Shown piece after piece: positions 20,101-52,582 of a stretch of 64,000 nt of DNA. This DNA comes from an uncultured Prochlorococcus sp. (GTDB taxonomy: Bacteria > Cyanobacteriota > Cyanobacteriia > PCC-6307 > Cyanobiaceae): positions 62,001-126,000 of the forward strand of contig CACJPB010000001.1 of assembly GCA_902595175.1 (NCBI GenBank), read 5' to 3'. Each line of letters begins with the position of its first letter. Positions within the stretch are counted from its first letter, which is position 1. The notes under the pieces are model-generated. The model saw only the letters and a list, made by a program, of their open reading frames with translations. It was not told the DNA's origin and did not search any database. The position numbers and the translations under genes were made by a program.

Positions 20101-21216
20101 TTAACCTATATCTTTTTTATTTTGCCTTAATCTCAAAAATTCAGGAATGCTGGCTCCCGACTCTTTATTATCGGAGTAATTATATAAAGGTTGATTAGAT
20201 AATCTGTTTTTTATTCTTTGCTGATTTAATGGTTGGGTTGTTTCAAATCCTGTGGCAATTACAGTAACTTGTATCTCCCCTTCCATTGCCTCATCTACAA
20301 CGGCACCAACAATAATATTTGCTTCTTGATCAACAACATCATAAATAATTTCAGATGCAGAGGTCATGTCTTCTAAAGTCATGTCTTTGCCACCAGTAAT
20401 ATTTATAACGCAGCCTTTAGCTCCATCAATTCTAGCTGCCTCTAACAAAGGACTATTCATTGCTGCCTGTGCTGCCTCTATAGCTCTCGATCTTCCTGAA
20501 CCTATACCTATTCCGAGGAGAGCCGTGCCAGCTTCAGTCATAACTGATCTTACGTCAGCAAAATCAACGTTAACTAATCCTGGGCAAGTAATTATGTCAC
20601 TTATGCCTTTGACTCCCATCCTTAGAACATCATCGGCATTCCTAAATGCTTCTTGAAGAGGAGCTCCTGCTATAACGTCTTTTAATCGGTCGTTTGGGAT
20701 CACTATAAGAGTATCAACGTTTTCAGCTAGTCTTGCAATCCCCTCCTCTGCTTGCCGCATTCTTCTTTTTCCTTCAAAAGAAAATGGTTTGGTAACTATA
20801 CCTACTGTTAGAGCCCCACTTTGTTTTGCTACTTCTGCAACAACGGGAGCTGCACCTGTGCCAGTTCCTCCACCCATTCCAGCGGCTATAAAAACTAGAT
20901 CAGATCCCTCTAAAGCTTGTTGAAGCTCTTCTTTTGATTCTTCGGCTGCTTTTTGCCCAATACTTGGATTACCTCCTGCACCTAAACCTCTAGTAAGGTT
21001 TTGTCCAAGTTGAACCCTACTTTCTGCAGAAGATTGAAGTAGGGCTTGTGCATCTGTATTAAGAACTCTAAATGAAACACCTTCTAAATCACTATTTATC
21101 ATTCTATTTACTGCATTACTGCCACCACCACCTACACCAATAACTTCTATTTTGGCATTTTGGCTTGGAAGGATTTCTCTCGATTGATCAAAGTTTGGAT
21201 TGTTACCGAAGCTCAT
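20101..21216 (-). CDS. ftsZ: cell division protein FtsZ
   Basis: [33 protein letters not shown] tubulin-like signatures. Confidence 0.98.
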
Positions 21217-21395
21217 CTCTTAATAGGGATCTATTACTAGTATTGGGTGCATTATGAACTTACTGCGCTCATCTGTAGGAATTTGTTGAGGAAAATCCTA
21301 AAAATATTTATTTATTAAATATTTTGTTTTGAATGCAAAACCCATATCAACACTACAATAATTAAAAAAAATTACTCAAAATCCTTTTTCAAATA

Positions 21396-22118
21396 TTAGG
21401 GTTTGAACACTTTTATTTTTGGTTTATCTGGATTAGTAAGATCAATACTATCTATTTTTTTTGAAAAGCTACTTTTCTTAAATTCATTTTTCAGATTATT
21501 GATTGTTTGTAATTGATAGTTGATTAAATTTGGCTTAAATCCTAAGAATATTTTTTTTAAATCTTTTTCCTCAATAGTTAGAAACCCATCGGATGAGAAA
21601 GTTATTTTAACTATCTCTAATTCATAATTTTCTAAAGCGATAAAAATGTCAGATAACATTTTTTTAAATTTTTCTTTCCATCCAAAAACTTCTATGTTTA
21701 ATTTGTTCAAAGTTTTTTTGTCTGCATTTTGTTTTTCGATAAAAATTCCCTCTTTATCAATAAAGCCTGATATTTTTTTTTCGTTTAAGATTCGTTCACC
21801 GTAAGCTATTGGGATTCTTGAATCAATATGAACTTTCAAACCAAAAGGAAATAATTCTCTATTTACTGAAACATTCTTTAGAGATAAATTTTGTTTTAAC
21901 TCTTTTTCTAACAAATTAGTTTTGACAAAAATTAATCGGATGGGGAATTTTAAAGATGAATTATTTATCACATCTTTCTGTGAAAATAATTCACTACCAG
22001 AAACCCTAATGTTCTTGATATCAACTTTTTTGAGAGTTTTAATACTTAATAAACTTGTTAAAAATAAAAATGAAATTAGAAAAAAAAAGCTTCTGTTTTT
22101 GATTTTTTTGGTTTTCAC
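21396..22118 (-). CDS. ftsQ: FtsQ/DivIB-type cell division protein (POTRA domain)
   Basis: Single N-terminal TM, KKVDIKNIRVSGSELFSQKDVINNSSL POTRA-like; upstream of ftsZ. Confidence 0.85.
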   Translation of the reverse strand: MKTKKIKNRSFFFLISFLFLTSLLSIKTLKKVDIKNIRVSGSELFSQKDVINNSSLKFPIRLIFVKTNLLEKELKQNLSLKNVSVNRELFPFGLKVHIDSRIPIAYGERILNEKKISGFIDKEGIFIEKQNADKKTLNKLNIEVFGWKEKFKKMLSDIFIALENYELEIVKITFSSDGFLTIEEKDLKKIFLGFKPNLINYQLQTINNLKNEFKKSSFSKKIDSIDLTNPDKPKIKVFKP

Positions 22119-22525
22119 AAGTCACATCTAGCTTTTTCCATCAATTGATCCATCCATTCTCTTGCTTGCTCTGCATCTGAAAAAGGTACATCCATCTCTT
22201 TCCCGTCACCTACTAATCTCAACCTGCACTTACCTTGAGACTCATTTGTTAGAGGAGCTTCTCCTGAAGTTAGTGCCATTAATTCAACTAACTCTAGTTT
22301 TTTGATTATAAAAGTATCTTTTTCTTCAAATTTACCAGCTTCAAATGCGCTCCATCTTAACTCCCCATCTTTTAAGGAGGCTGCACCTGAACTATCTAAC
22401 TTGCATAGTTCAGAATCACTCGCCCAACTTCTAAAAAGATTTTGCCTTCTTCTTTCTAACCATCCAAGCGCAGTTAATAAAATGAAGATTAAAAGTAATG
22501 GTAACCAAAGAAGTCCATGCAACAT
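22115..22525 (-). CDS. conserved membrane-anchored protein of unknown function in the dcw region
   Basis: 136 aa, N-terminal TM then soluble domain; 4-bp overlap with ftsQ start. Confidence 0.75.
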   Translation of the reverse strand: MLHGLLWLPLLLIFILLTALGWLERRRQNLFRSWASDSELCKLDSSGAASLKDGELRWSAFEAGKFEEKDTFIIKKLELVELMALTSGEAPLTNESQGKCRLRLVGDGKEMDVPFSDAEQAREWMDQLMEKARCDL

Positions 22526-22535
22526 TTGATTTAAA

Positions 22536-23603
22536 TTACAAATCTAAAGATATATCTACCAGTTTAGCCACAAGTTGTTCAATTTTTAAACCTGAAGCTT
22601 TCCAAAGCATTGGGAACATACTATTTTTTGTAAAACCAGGAATTGTATTTATTTCATTTAAAAAAATTTTATTTGAAGATTTTTCTAAAAAGAAATCTAC
22701 TCTTGCAAAACCGAAAATATTTAGTGCTCTACAACTTTTTATAGCGATTTCTTTAATTTCTTTTGAGATTTTAGAATCTATTTCGGCTGGGATAATTATT
22801 TTGTTATTTGAGTGATATTTTGAATTGTAATCATACCAATCACTTTCGTAATTAACTTCACCTATCTCGGAGGTTAAGAGTTTTGAATTCCCAATTATTC
22901 CGCATTCAATCTCCCTTACCTCTAAACCTTCCTCTATTAAGATTCTTGGATCTATTCCCCGAGCTTTTTCTAATGCTGGTATTATTTCTGATTCATTTAT
23001 GACTTTGGAGATACCAAGAGATGATCCGGAGTTCGATGGTTTAACAAAAACAGGAAAATTTAATTTTTTTAAGATTTCATGAATTAACTCATTTTTTACT
23101 TCCACATCGTTGAGATCTTGATTCTGAAAAACTAGATAATTAACTTGCGGAAGTTTAAGATTTGAGAAAATTGTTTTCATCAATATTTTATCCATTCCAA
23201 GTGCAGAGCCTATAATTCCACATCCAACAAAAGGTTTCTTTGTGAATCTCAGTAAGCCATGAATTGATCCGTCTTCTCCATTAATTCCATGTAAAAGAGG
23301 AAACCAAACATCAACATTTTGAAATTCAACTCCGTCTAGGAAGTTAATTTTTTCTTGATTGAAAATTTGTGTTTTTGTTGTGTTGTTGTTTTGTGATTCA
23401 GCAATTAGGATTTTTTCTGAACTATCACTATCAAGCCAATCTCCATATTTGTTTATGTAAAAAGCTTTTACTGTAAAGCGCTCTTTGTTTATTTCTGATT
23501 TAAATGCTTGAAAGACTGTTTTTGCAGAGGATATCGATACTTCATGTTCATTAGAATTACCACCAAATATTAACCCAATACATTTTTTCTTTCCCCCAAT
23601 CAT
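22536..23603 (-). CDS. ddl: D-alanine--D-alanine ligase
   Basis: GLIFGGNSNEHEVSISSA, HGINGEDGSIHGLL, FLNEINTIPGFTKNSMFP. Confidence 0.96.
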   Translation of the reverse strand: MIGGKKKCIGLIFGGNSNEHEVSISSAKTVFQAFKSEINKERFTVKAFYINKYGDWLDSDSSEKILIAESQNNNTTKTQIFNQEKINFLDGVEFQNVDVWFPLLHGINGEDGSIHGLLRFTKKPFVGCGIIGSALGMDKILMKTIFSNLKLPQVNYLVFQNQDLNDVEVKNELIHEILKKLNFPVFVKPSNSGSSLGISKVINESEIIPALEKARGIDPRILIEEGLEVREIECGIIGNSKLLTSEIGEVNYESDWYDYNSKYHSNNKIIIPAEIDSKISKEIKEIAIKSCRALNIFGFARVDFFLEKSSNKIFLNEINTIPGFTKNSMFPMLWKASGLKIEQLVAKLVDISLDL

Positions 23604-48957: not shown

Positions 48958-50709
48958 TTAGGGTTTTTTAACAATCATTCCGTGATCTTCAATATTAGGA
49001 GGTAATTTTTCAATTACTATCAAACTTTCGATAATTTCTTTCGCTACAGGCACTGCAACAGTTGAACCATATGCATATGATTTAGATGGCTCATCAACAA
49101 CCACGAGGACAGCAAATTTTGGATCATTAACTGGTAAGGTTGCGACAAAACTACAAACTTTTTTACTTGTATACGAACCATTTATGGCTTTTTGAGAAGT
49201 ACCCGTTTTCCCAGCTATCCTATATCCCTCAATTTTTGCTCCAGATCCACTACCTTGATCAACTACACTCTCCATCCATTCAAGAACAATTTTAGAGACA
49301 TCCGGTGAAAAAAATTGTTTCTTTGGATTTTTATTAACTCTTTCTTTAAAAGATGAGGTTACATGTGGAGTCACTTCAAACCCCCCGTTTGCTAAAGCCG
49401 CATGAAGTTGAACCAATTTAAGTGGCGAGATTGAGAACCCTTTACCAAAAGAAGTTACGGCAGGTTCAATTGATTGATTTACAAATAAATCTTTTCTCTT
49501 TAGTTGGCCAGCAGTTGATTCAAATAAGTCAGTCTCTAAACTTTTATTTATTCCTAATTTTTGTAGCCAATCCCAATAAATTGTGGGGTCTAAATTTTGC
49601 ATTATTTTTACCATCCCAACATTACTTGAAACCTGCAATACTTTTGGATAGTCAATGTATCCATTACCTTTTTTATTCCAATTCGAAAGTGTCCATCCTC
49701 CAACCTTAATCTTTCCAATATCTTCGACTAATCCATCTTTCTGGATTACTTTTTCTTCTAACGCTAAGGCAAGATTAATAGGTTTAAAAGTTGAACCAGG
49801 CTCAAATAAATCTTGAGAATACCAACCCCTAAAGAGTTCGGAATCATACTGCCAAAATTTATTTGGATCATATGACGGTACTGAAACCAAGGAGAGGATC
49901 CGACCATTATTAACATCCATAACTATGGCAAATCCCTTCTTTGCTTTCCATTCGCTTACTTGCTTTGATAATGCATTGAATGACGCTTTCTGTAATTTTG
50001 AGTCTATAGTTAGTCCTAAACTTTTGTAATCATAAATAAAATCACCTGGGGCCGAATTATCCGGGAGAGGAGTTCCATCTCCTCCTCTTTTTATTAAATT
50101 ACTTTTATTAAAAACTTTAATTTGATTATCTAAATGAAGCTCTAAACCTGCTGAGCCTTTATTCTCATCATTAACAAAACCTACAAGATTAGAGTAAAGC
50201 TCTCCTTGGGGATAATATCTCTGCGAATATTTAAACAAATCAAGTCCGCTTATTTGAAGGTTCTTAATCTTTTCTGCCTTTTCTTCAGAAATCTTATCCA
50301 AAAGCTTGATACCAATCATTTTATTATTAAATTTCTCAACGAGTATTTCATTATTAATATCCAAGATAGATGTCAATTTTTTTGTAACTTCTTCAATACT
50401 GCGAACTCTATTAATTGAATCACCAGGAAAATTAAAATATTGTGGATGTGCCCATAATTTGTAGAGAGGTTTATCATAAGCTATTAGTCTATTATTTCTA
50501 TCAACAATTGATCTCCTTATTTTTAAGGAGTTAATTTTAGAAGACTGAATTAATCTAGCTTTCCTTTGCAAATCAGATGCGTTAAAGACTTGCAATTTAA
50601 CTAACCTACCAAACAAACAAAATATTAGTAGTAAACTAAAAAAATAGAGAAATTTAAATCTTCTTTGATCAAGTGGTGTTAGACGAACAATTTTTTTGTA
50701 TTTTTTCAT
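48958..50709 (-). CDS. ftsI: FtsI / penicillin-binding protein 2-3 type transpeptidase
   Basis: FEPGSTFKPI (SxxK), SSN, KTGTSQ motifs; TM at N-terminus; ATG 50709 in TGATGA overlap. Confidence 0.94.
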   Translation of the reverse strand: MKKYKKIVRLTPLDQRRFKFLYFFSLLLIFCLFGRLVKLQVFNASDLQRKARLIQSSKINSLKIRRSIVDRNNRLIAYDKPLYKLWAHPQYFNFPGDSINRVRSIEEVTKKLTSILDINNEILVEKFNNKMIGIKLLDKISEEKAEKIKNLQISGLDLFKYSQRYYPQGELYSNLVGFVNDENKGSAGLELHLDNQIKVFNKSNLIKRGGDGTPLPDNSAPGDFIYDYKSLGLTIDSKLQKASFNALSKQVSEWKAKKGFAIVMDVNNGRILSLVSVPSYDPNKFWQYDSELFRGWYSQDLFEPGSTFKPINLALALEEKVIQKDGLVEDIGKIKVGGWTLSNWNKKGNGYIDYPKVLQVSSNVGMVKIMQNLDPTIYWDWLQKLGINKSLETDLFESTAGQLKRKDLFVNQSIEPAVTSFGKGFSISPLKLVQLHAALANGGFEVTPHVTSSFKERVNKNPKKQFFSPDVSKIVLEWMESVVDQGSGSGAKIEGYRIAGKTGTSQKAINGSYTSKKVCSFVATLPVNDPKFAVLVVVDEPSKSYAYGSTVAVPVAKEIIESLIVIEKLPPNIEDHGMIVKKP

Positions 50710-51137
50710 CAATATCCCCTTTGATATTTGCTATCTACAAAACCTTCAATAAAACTACTTAAATTTTTCTTAAATAAACTTTCTTTTTTTTCTGGAAGTT
50801 TATCTAGATAAATTAAATCTTTAGGTTTAGTTTTTGTATAAGTATTAATAGACTCAAGTTCACTAATATAAAATTCCTCAATTTTGGAAATATAATCAAT
50901 AAGATTATCATTGATAGTTCTTGTTTTAGATAAGTTTTTATATGTATTTGACCATTTTCTTTGACTATTAAATGACAAGAAAAATAAAGTGAAAATTAAT
51001 AACAAAAGAGAGATATTAATGGTGTCGAAAATTTGATGTATTAATTTGATATTAATTATAGATATTCTTTCAGAGTTTTTTTTAGTTTCATATGAAACTT
51101 TTTTTTTTAAATTAAGTTGACTCCCATAAGGTTTCAT
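50709..51137 (-). CDS. hypothetical single-TM/coiled-coil protein upstream of ftsI (FtsL-like topology)
   Basis: 142 aa; TM INISLLLLIFTLFFLSF followed by helical charged segment; stop overlaps ftsI start. Confidence 0.7.
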   Translation of the reverse strand: MKPYGSQLNLKKKVSYETKKNSERISIINIKLIHQIFDTINISLLLLIFTLFFLSFNSQRKWSNTYKNLSKTRTINDNLIDYISKIEEFYISELESINTYTKTKPKDLIYLDKLPEKKESLFKKNLSSFIEGFVDSKYQRGY

Positions 51138-51220: not shown

Positions 51221-52582
51221 TTATGTCCTCAATAAGAACAAATTTAAGAAAGTCAATCCATTCCACAAAGAATGCATAATCACTGAGGAAAACAAACTCC
51301 CTGAAGCAATTCTTGTAATTGCTAATCCAATCCCCAAAACAAATAATGGCGGCATTTCTCCCAAACTTAAATGGGCTAATGCAAAGATAAAAGCTGAAAC
51401 TATGATGCCCGAAATTACTCCAAAATCTCTTGAAAGAATTGGCAGTAAAATACCGCGAAATATAATCTCTTCAAATAGAGGAGCTAATAGAGTTGTTGTT
51501 ACAAATAATAGAAAAAATGATAAGTAATTATTATTATTGAGAACAATTTCCAGCAAGGGGTTACTACCATTCTGATTCTCGATCAGACTATTCATAATTA
51601 TTGAGATCAATAAAACAAAAGGAACAATTGTTAACCAACCTTTAATTCCCTGGATAATTGCATATTTTATTGGCAAGAAATTGAACTGTAAATAATCCTT
51701 TTTAAAAGTAAATTCACCATTTAAGGATTTAATTTGATAAAAAACTATCCATAATGGCGGAATAGCCATAAAAAGATATCCAAAGAAAATTTTTAAAGAT
51801 TGAGACAATTCATTAGAGATTTTTTTAGAAAAAAGTTCAACCAAACTAATAGAAAATAAAGGTGATACCACTTCTCCTAGAACAACAAATCCACCTGCAA
51901 TTAATAAAACCATATCTATTAATTCTAAATCTAAGGCTTTAATTTCTTTCCAACCAAACTTTTTCAAAGATATGGTTTTCCATAATATTTTTAAAGCCAG
52001 AATAGAGCCAATAAGTATTGTTAAAAGTGGAATTAGTCTTATGGCTAATATTTTAAAAAACATTTTTCTTGAAAATGATTTTGTTATTAATGCGCTATCG
52101 TCAAAATCAAATTTCCTGCTTAAAAGGTGATATAAAAATCTATCACCTTTAAATAAATCAAATTTATCAGAATTTGCTTTATATGAATTATTAGTAGATT
52201 TTTTTTCTATCTCATCAATCAGAAATATAAAGTTTTTATCTTTAAAATCTTTGGATATATTTTTATAAATTAAAAAATCATTTGATTCTGAAGTGATTAT
52301 TCGAATTAATTTATTTCTTTCTGTTAGCTCTTCAAATGGGACATCAGAGAGTGATTTGTTTATTTGATCAATAGGATCATTAATAATAAAAAATTTTTTA
52401 AGATTTACAGGTACTGATTGGACAGATAATTCAGCAATTTCTTGCTCTTTTTGACTAATATCAAATGAAACAGATGGTCTATTTAAACTGTCTCTTAAGC
52501 CTTGTTGCCATACAAAAAAAGTTATGACGATAGAAATAAAGGCTAAAGTGAGTTTTGACTTAGAACTATTTTTAAAGATCAT
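51221..52582 (-). CDS. CPBP family intramembrane glutamic endopeptidase (CAAX protease-like)
   Basis: FEEIIFRGILLP, ISAFIFALAHL, HSLWNGL motifs. Confidence 0.9.
   Translation of the reverse strand: MIFKNSSKSKLTLAFISIVITFFVWQQGLRDSLNRPSVSFDISQKEQEIAELSVQSVPVNLKKFFIINDPIDQINKSLSDVPFEELTERNKLIRIITSESNDFLIYKNISKDFKDKNFIFLIDEIEKKSTNNSYKANSDKFDLFKGDRFLYHLLSRKFDFDDSALITKSFSRKMFFKILAIRLIPLLTILIGSILALKILWKTISLKKFGWKEIKALDLELIDMVLLIAGGFVVLGEVVSPLFSISLVELFSKKISNELSQSLKIFFGYLFMAIPPLWIVFYQIKSLNGEFTFKKDYLQFNFLPIKYAIIQGIKGWLTIVPFVLLISIIMNSLIENQNGSNPLLEIVLNNNNYLSFFLLFVTTTLLAPLFEEIIFRGILLPILSRDFGVISGIIVSAFIFALAHLSLGEMPPLFVLGIGLAITRIASGSLFSSVIMHSLWNGLTFLNLFLLRT

Follow-up and report, generated by a model that had tools for sequence, protein, structure and literature searches.

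The open reading frame (ORF) directly 5' of ftsI in the window, the stretch of 64,000 nucleotides of uncultured Prochlorococcus sp. DNA that was analysed, very probably encodes a divergent cyanobacterial FtsL, a core cell-division protein. The assignment is made because, in sister non-photosynthetic classes, the ORFs situated between mraW and ftsI score on FtsL models and are homologous to the cyanobacterial family to which the window protein belongs. The features discussed below are listed in Table 1.

Table 1. The proposed ftsL and its features, neighbouring division genes in the window, and examples of the slr1601 family from other loci
Feature	Position	Strand	Evidence or remarks
ftsL (proposed)	50709..51137	(-)	142 aa, bitopic, ATG start; conserved single-copy family, synteny, profile homology
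Transmembrane helix, residues 36-57	50967..51032	(-)	Hydropathy and AlphaFold2
Predicted periplasmic amphipathic helix, residues 58-96	50850..50966	(-)	AlphaFold2, alignment, periodicity; W62 and L69 nearly invariant
KPKDLIYL, residues 104-111	50805..50828	(-)	Alignments; counterpart of the family 'P..TIFL.PAP' segment
C-terminal RGY-COOH	50712..50720	(-)	Family mostly -GY
TGATG	50707..50711	(-)	ftsL stop TGA shares one base with ftsI ATG; translational-coupling arrangement
ftsI, class B PBP, septal transpeptidase	48958..50709	(-)	Pfam Transpeptidase 1.3e-64, PBP_dimer 3.3e-11
ftsQ, predicted partner	21396..22118	(-)	POTRA_1 4e-9; adjoins ftsZ
ftsZ	20101-21216	(-)	FtsZ domains
slr1601 family example	L171:1441-1836	(-)	NF052344
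slr1601 family example	L177:1450-1848	(-)	NF052344
slr1601 family, further examples	L212-L215, L219-L233		NF052344

In the sister classes, seven ftsI loci from four families were compared. In each, the ORF directly upstream of ftsI encodes a bitopic protein and is itself preceded by a gene that reads as mraW; this reading was confirmed with the Pfam MraW model in four loci (E values of 6e-92 to 9e-100). The resulting order, mraW-ORF-ftsI, is that of E. coli, where the gene between mraW and ftsI is ftsL. Against the NCBI FtsL models the sister ORFs matched at best at 5.1e-7, followed by 1.8e-6 and 2.4e-6; they are the best genome-wide FtsL_Actino match in five genomes, and one of them matches DivIC at 8e-4. 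In sister-class family f44 (G342:C7, G344:C16, G348:C3 and G444:C6), the FtsL_Actino model matches best to two small ORFs that recur as a pair away from ftsI, with a spacing of about 4 kb (in G344, about 39 kb).

Homology of the cyanobacterial family to recognized FtsL runs by way of these sister-class proteins. HHalign comparison of the family, built without the window's own GTDB family, with the sister FtsL alignment gave 94.4% (P = 8.7e-8) and a median of 92.7% over half-samples, against at most 5% for reversed decoys and at most 34.6% (median 1.4%) for 40 locally shuffled decoys. The picocyanobacterial branch that includes the window protein matched the other cyanobacterial members at 98% (P = 2.3e-13). 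Compared directly with sister FtsL, this branch gave a non-significant 4% (P = 0.01), so that the window protein is identified by a two-step chain, through the other cyanobacteria, together with synteny. HHalign comparison with the E. coli FtsL as a single sequence was uninformative. The two profile steps, the FtsL-model scores of the sister ORFs and the gene order in both groups strengthen the FtsL-like reading given in the original prediction.

A second family bears on this assignment. The slr1601 family (putative cell division protein, NF052344) comprises small bitopic helical proteins present in 191 of 195 genomes, nearly always in one copy. It resembles the ftsI-linked family in being universal, single-copy, bitopic and helical, but its genes do not adjoin ftsI in the loci that were read, and it has a different conserved C-terminal motif, AQEEANLIxPNQRRIIW. 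As FtsB and FtsL share a bitopic helical design, the ftsI-linked family could be an FtsB/DivIC-type subunit and the slr1601 family the true FtsL; the weak matches of slr1601 members to TIGR02209 (0.0023-0.14) and the DivIC match of one sister ORF point in that direction. Such an exchange of roles is improbable, however, since it is the sister orthologues of the ftsI-linked family that occupy the ftsL slot between mraW and ftsI, and since the slr1601 family reached 9% against sister FtsL (17% in half-samples) where the ftsI-linked family reached 94%. Members of the slr1601 family also match DivIC, at 3.5e-4 to 5e-4. An FtsB/DivIC protein would be marked by a DivIC match and a locus independent of ftsI, whereas the locus of the ftsI-linked family is usually beside ftsI, and DivIC (PF04977) is absent among the 25 Pfam families listed for 33 of its members. 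The ftsI-linked family is thus assigned as FtsL, and the slr1601 family is tentatively regarded as the cyanobacterial FtsB/DivIC candidate.

Conserved synteny of a bitopic ORF 5' of ftsI, proposed as a check in the original prediction, was found across the class as well as in the sister classes, there between mraW and ftsI. Inspection covered ftsI loci from 70 cyanobacterial genomes, representing about 30 families. In 57 of these an ORF of the same bitopic family is found immediately 5' of ftsI, and each of the other 13 genomes carries one copy elsewhere (family profile, E values of 1e-22 to 1e-42). The characteristic position of FtsL, 5' of ftsI and after mraW, is therefore seen as ftsI adjacency in the cyanobacteria and as the full gene order in all seven sister-class loci. 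A search of 195 genomes (107 genera) with the family profile returned exactly one match in 194. The sole miss, G269, coincides with a contig break, the ftsI contig ending upstream inside '...TELGY*'. In each of the 34 named Nostocaceae loci (among them Nostoc, Anabaena, Nodularia and Calothrix) the gene is present and is closely followed by an ftsI-like ORF. In Synechococcus elongatus, Synpcc7942_0482 is the gene upstream of ftsI. A profile built without the window's GTDB family (f1) recovers the ftsI-adjacent ORF in 13 f1 genomes (E values of 5e-13 to 8e-5). A scan of named genomes with a Synechococcus elongatus-like query gave no match. One match at 1e-4 (G343:C60) was rejected as a coiled-coil ORF of another kind, situated beside a transaldolase-like ORF; the FtsL of that genome lies upstream of its ftsI (L162).

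The divergence of the family is extreme. The window protein alone matched no FtsL model and had no significant match to any other family, a PF04999 (FtsL) search of the source genome gave no match, Pfam scans of the window protein and of 33 members returned chance-level matches only, and a profile search against the PDB found nothing relevant. The lack of a significant family match to the single sequence would suit a membrane protein unrelated to FtsL and merely co-transcribed with ftsI. This is very improbable in view of the profile homology to ORFs that are FtsL by their position between mraW and ftsI and by their model matches, and of the universal single copy, which persists even where the gene is unlinked from ftsI. 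Nor does an unrelated family offer a better fit, the Pfam matches being chance-like and the two commonest NCBIfam families over 33 non-picocyanobacterial members both being FtsL models: TIGR02209 (six members, best 8.7e-5) and FtsL_Actino (five members, best 0.0014).

The curated cut-off of TIGR02209, NF053549 or PF04999 was reached in no cyanobacterial genome, and the same searches passed it in only one to two of 14 control genomes. Among these controls are Bacillus subtilis and Caulobacter, which have FtsL. Because most controls also miss the cut-off, the miss is a limit of the models and not a biological criterion; as the models stand, the scores place the family that includes the window protein outside the membership of all three. 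Genome-wide scans of cyanobacteria with TIGR02209 and DivIC were noisy and returned mostly unrelated coiled coils, and in eight genomes the best TIGR02209 match is the ftsI-linked family gene (hand comparison).

The ORF predicted to encode 142 aa is present on the minus strand and is a real gene. Of the 151 genomes of the genus, taken at all qualities, 119 contain a homologue, including all 51 of at least 90% completeness. With a pN/pS of 0.30 against 27 relatives, the frame is clearly coding and under purifying selection. The 3' end of the ORF reads ...CAAAGGGGATATTGATGAAAAAA. The arrangement for translational coupling with ftsI is as originally claimed, but the overlap is TGATG, with one shared base, and not TGATGA; it is kept in all 28 readable genus loci. 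Although long frames may arise by chance in a low-GC genome, a spurious or non-coding AT-rich frame has practically no probability, being already refuted by the pN/pS value and by the conservation of both the overlap and, in 194 of 195 genomes, the family.

Hydropathy and AlphaFold2 agree on the topology first proposed, with a short cytoplasmic N-terminus, one strong transmembrane helix and a charged, helical C-terminus. In the presumed orientation, about 35 cytoplasmic residues precede the transmembrane helix, whose best 19-residue hydropathy window begins at residue 36, with a mean Kyte-Doolittle value of 2.25. AlphaFold2, supplied with 51 relatives, modelled a single helix over residues 17-96 (pLDDT 96-98 over residues 31-90), beyond which come a tail of low confidence and another, short helix. 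A distant family member was likewise modelled with one continuous transmembrane-plus-periplasmic helix. FtsL has a periplasmic coiled-coil helix contiguous with the transmembrane one; the helix here is continuous and amphipathic, with a period of 3.6 (permutation P = 0.024), and may form a coiled coil. A single transmembrane segment, a variable cytoplasmic N-terminus and a periplasmic C-terminal part, which characterize FtsL, are all found in the family, given the presumed orientation.

In cyanobacterial members the transmembrane segment is followed by W...Y..L..L...E..L, then by 'GLV..P..TIFL.PAP' and finally by a C-terminal Tyr. The position of KPKDLIYL in the window protein matches that of the C-terminal strand of FtsL by homology, and this segment is proposed to pair as a beta-strand with FtsB/FtsQ. 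The C-terminal Tyr is invariant in both family alignments (A1 and A2). Among 57 members the ends are GY in 52, AY in four and NY in one, a distribution in which the residue before the Tyr is partly selected for, as the member search was partly filtered on a [GAN]Y ending; the unfiltered profile matches of the 195-genome search mostly reach the last model position. The alignments thus point to an invariant C-terminal Tyr (mostly -GY) as a new feature of the family. All seven sister FtsL proteins have an aromatic C-terminus (EGY, EAY, IGF, VGF, AAY, VSY and AAW), so the conserved terminus may predate the cyanobacteria.

The FtsI and FtsQ genes named in the original prediction were confirmed by Transpeptidase and PBP_dimer matches and by an FtsQ-type POTRA match, respectively. 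The window FtsI finds its best outgroup match, at 220-226 bits, in the PBP of the mraW-ftsL-ftsI cluster, as against 90-91 bits for a second outgroup PBP beside an MreD-like ORF. A further remnant of the dcw cluster is the grouping of ddl, ftsQ and ftsZ on one strand of the window (20101-23603, minus strand). In the window, mraW is not adjacent to ftsL; the gene directly 5', on the same strand and separated by 83 bp, encodes a CPBP-family intramembrane protease (51221-52582, minus strand). It is possible that the protease gene and ftsL form one operon in this genus.

With known FtsL (TIGR02209 ftsL_broad, NF053549 FtsL_Actino and PF04999) the cyanobacterial family shares the position 5' of ftsI, bitopic topology, a continuous transmembrane-periplasmic helix, a distal strand-like segment and remote profile similarity, and the sister classes also share the order with mraW. 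It differs in its scores, which lie below the curated cut-offs, and in its cytoplasmic N-terminus, which is long and basic in most cyanobacterial members but short in the window's genus. In addition, E. coli FtsL ends in NIVVQK shortly after the strand segment, whereas the cyanobacterial proteins have a proline-rich tail with the terminal invariant Tyr. CyDiv (All2320 of Anabaena) is described as topologically similar to FtsB/DivIC and as having a role in septum placement, and is reported to be exclusive to filamentous cyanobacteria, monocistronic and near glnB (PMC4748335). By this description it is set apart from the ftsI-linked family, which occurs in all cyanobacteria and is linked to ftsI.

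The claim that FtsL goes unrecognized in cyanobacteria accords with reviews that list FtsL and FtsB as absent (PMC7766704, PMC4748335). The identification made here contradicts that published absence, the family itself being a divergent member of FtsL. A study of dcw synteny used gene position to merge 36 ftsL orthogroups and, in passages that do not name the ftsI-linked family, describes most dcw genes as present but dispersed in cyanobacteria (PMC8871954). A Prochlorothrix genome table that lists ftsL/ftsB together with ftsA and zipA (PMC5069947) offers no sequence evidence and was set aside. A search that stopped short of the subscription literature found no publication identifying the ftsI-linked family as FtsL, and none on slr1601 or on gene names guessed to neighbour ftsI.

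In general, FtsL is essential for division, localizes to the septum and forms a complex with FtsB, FtsQ and FtsWI. Its transmembrane and periplasmic helices pair with those of FtsB, and it is thought to extend the FtsB/FtsQ assembly and to activate FtsWI. The ancestor of the phylum probably had mraW-ftsL-ftsI within a dcw cluster, ftsL then being inherited vertically and usually just the ftsL-ftsI pair being left together in cyanobacteria. In the mechanism proposed, which follows that of other FtsL proteins, the short N-terminus of the cyanobacterial FtsL would lie in the cytoplasm, and its one helix would cross the membrane into the periplasm and pair with an FtsB-like partner, for which the slr1601 family is the best candidate. 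KPKDLIYL ('P..TIFL' in relatives) would join the FtsB/FtsQ sheet as a further strand; in E. coli, the FtsQ sheet gains a strand from FtsB (PMC6134095). The helix around W62 and L69 may provide the FtsB/FtsI contact, and its docking on FtsI could couple FtsQ(B)L to the activation of FtsWI at the septum, while overlapping translation would keep FtsL and FtsI in step. A docking role for the -GY tail is a guess. It is conceivable, with chances a little short of even, that cyanobacteria possess a complete, unrecognized FtsQ-FtsB-FtsL module, with slr1601 as FtsB, and that their FtsL bears a phylum-specific docking peptide, an invariant aromatic end (mostly -GY) tethered by a proline-rich stretch, for a divisome partner in the periplasm.

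Published accounts of division in cyanobacteria lack FtsL and FtsB, so that the link between FtsQ and FtsWI had no explanation. If the identification of a universal single-copy FtsL and the universal FtsB candidate are correct, the canonical FtsQBL-FtsWI activation pathway would be common to a major phylum. They would also point to precise genes for experiments in tractable strains, with the conserved -GY terminus as a new and easily mutated feature.
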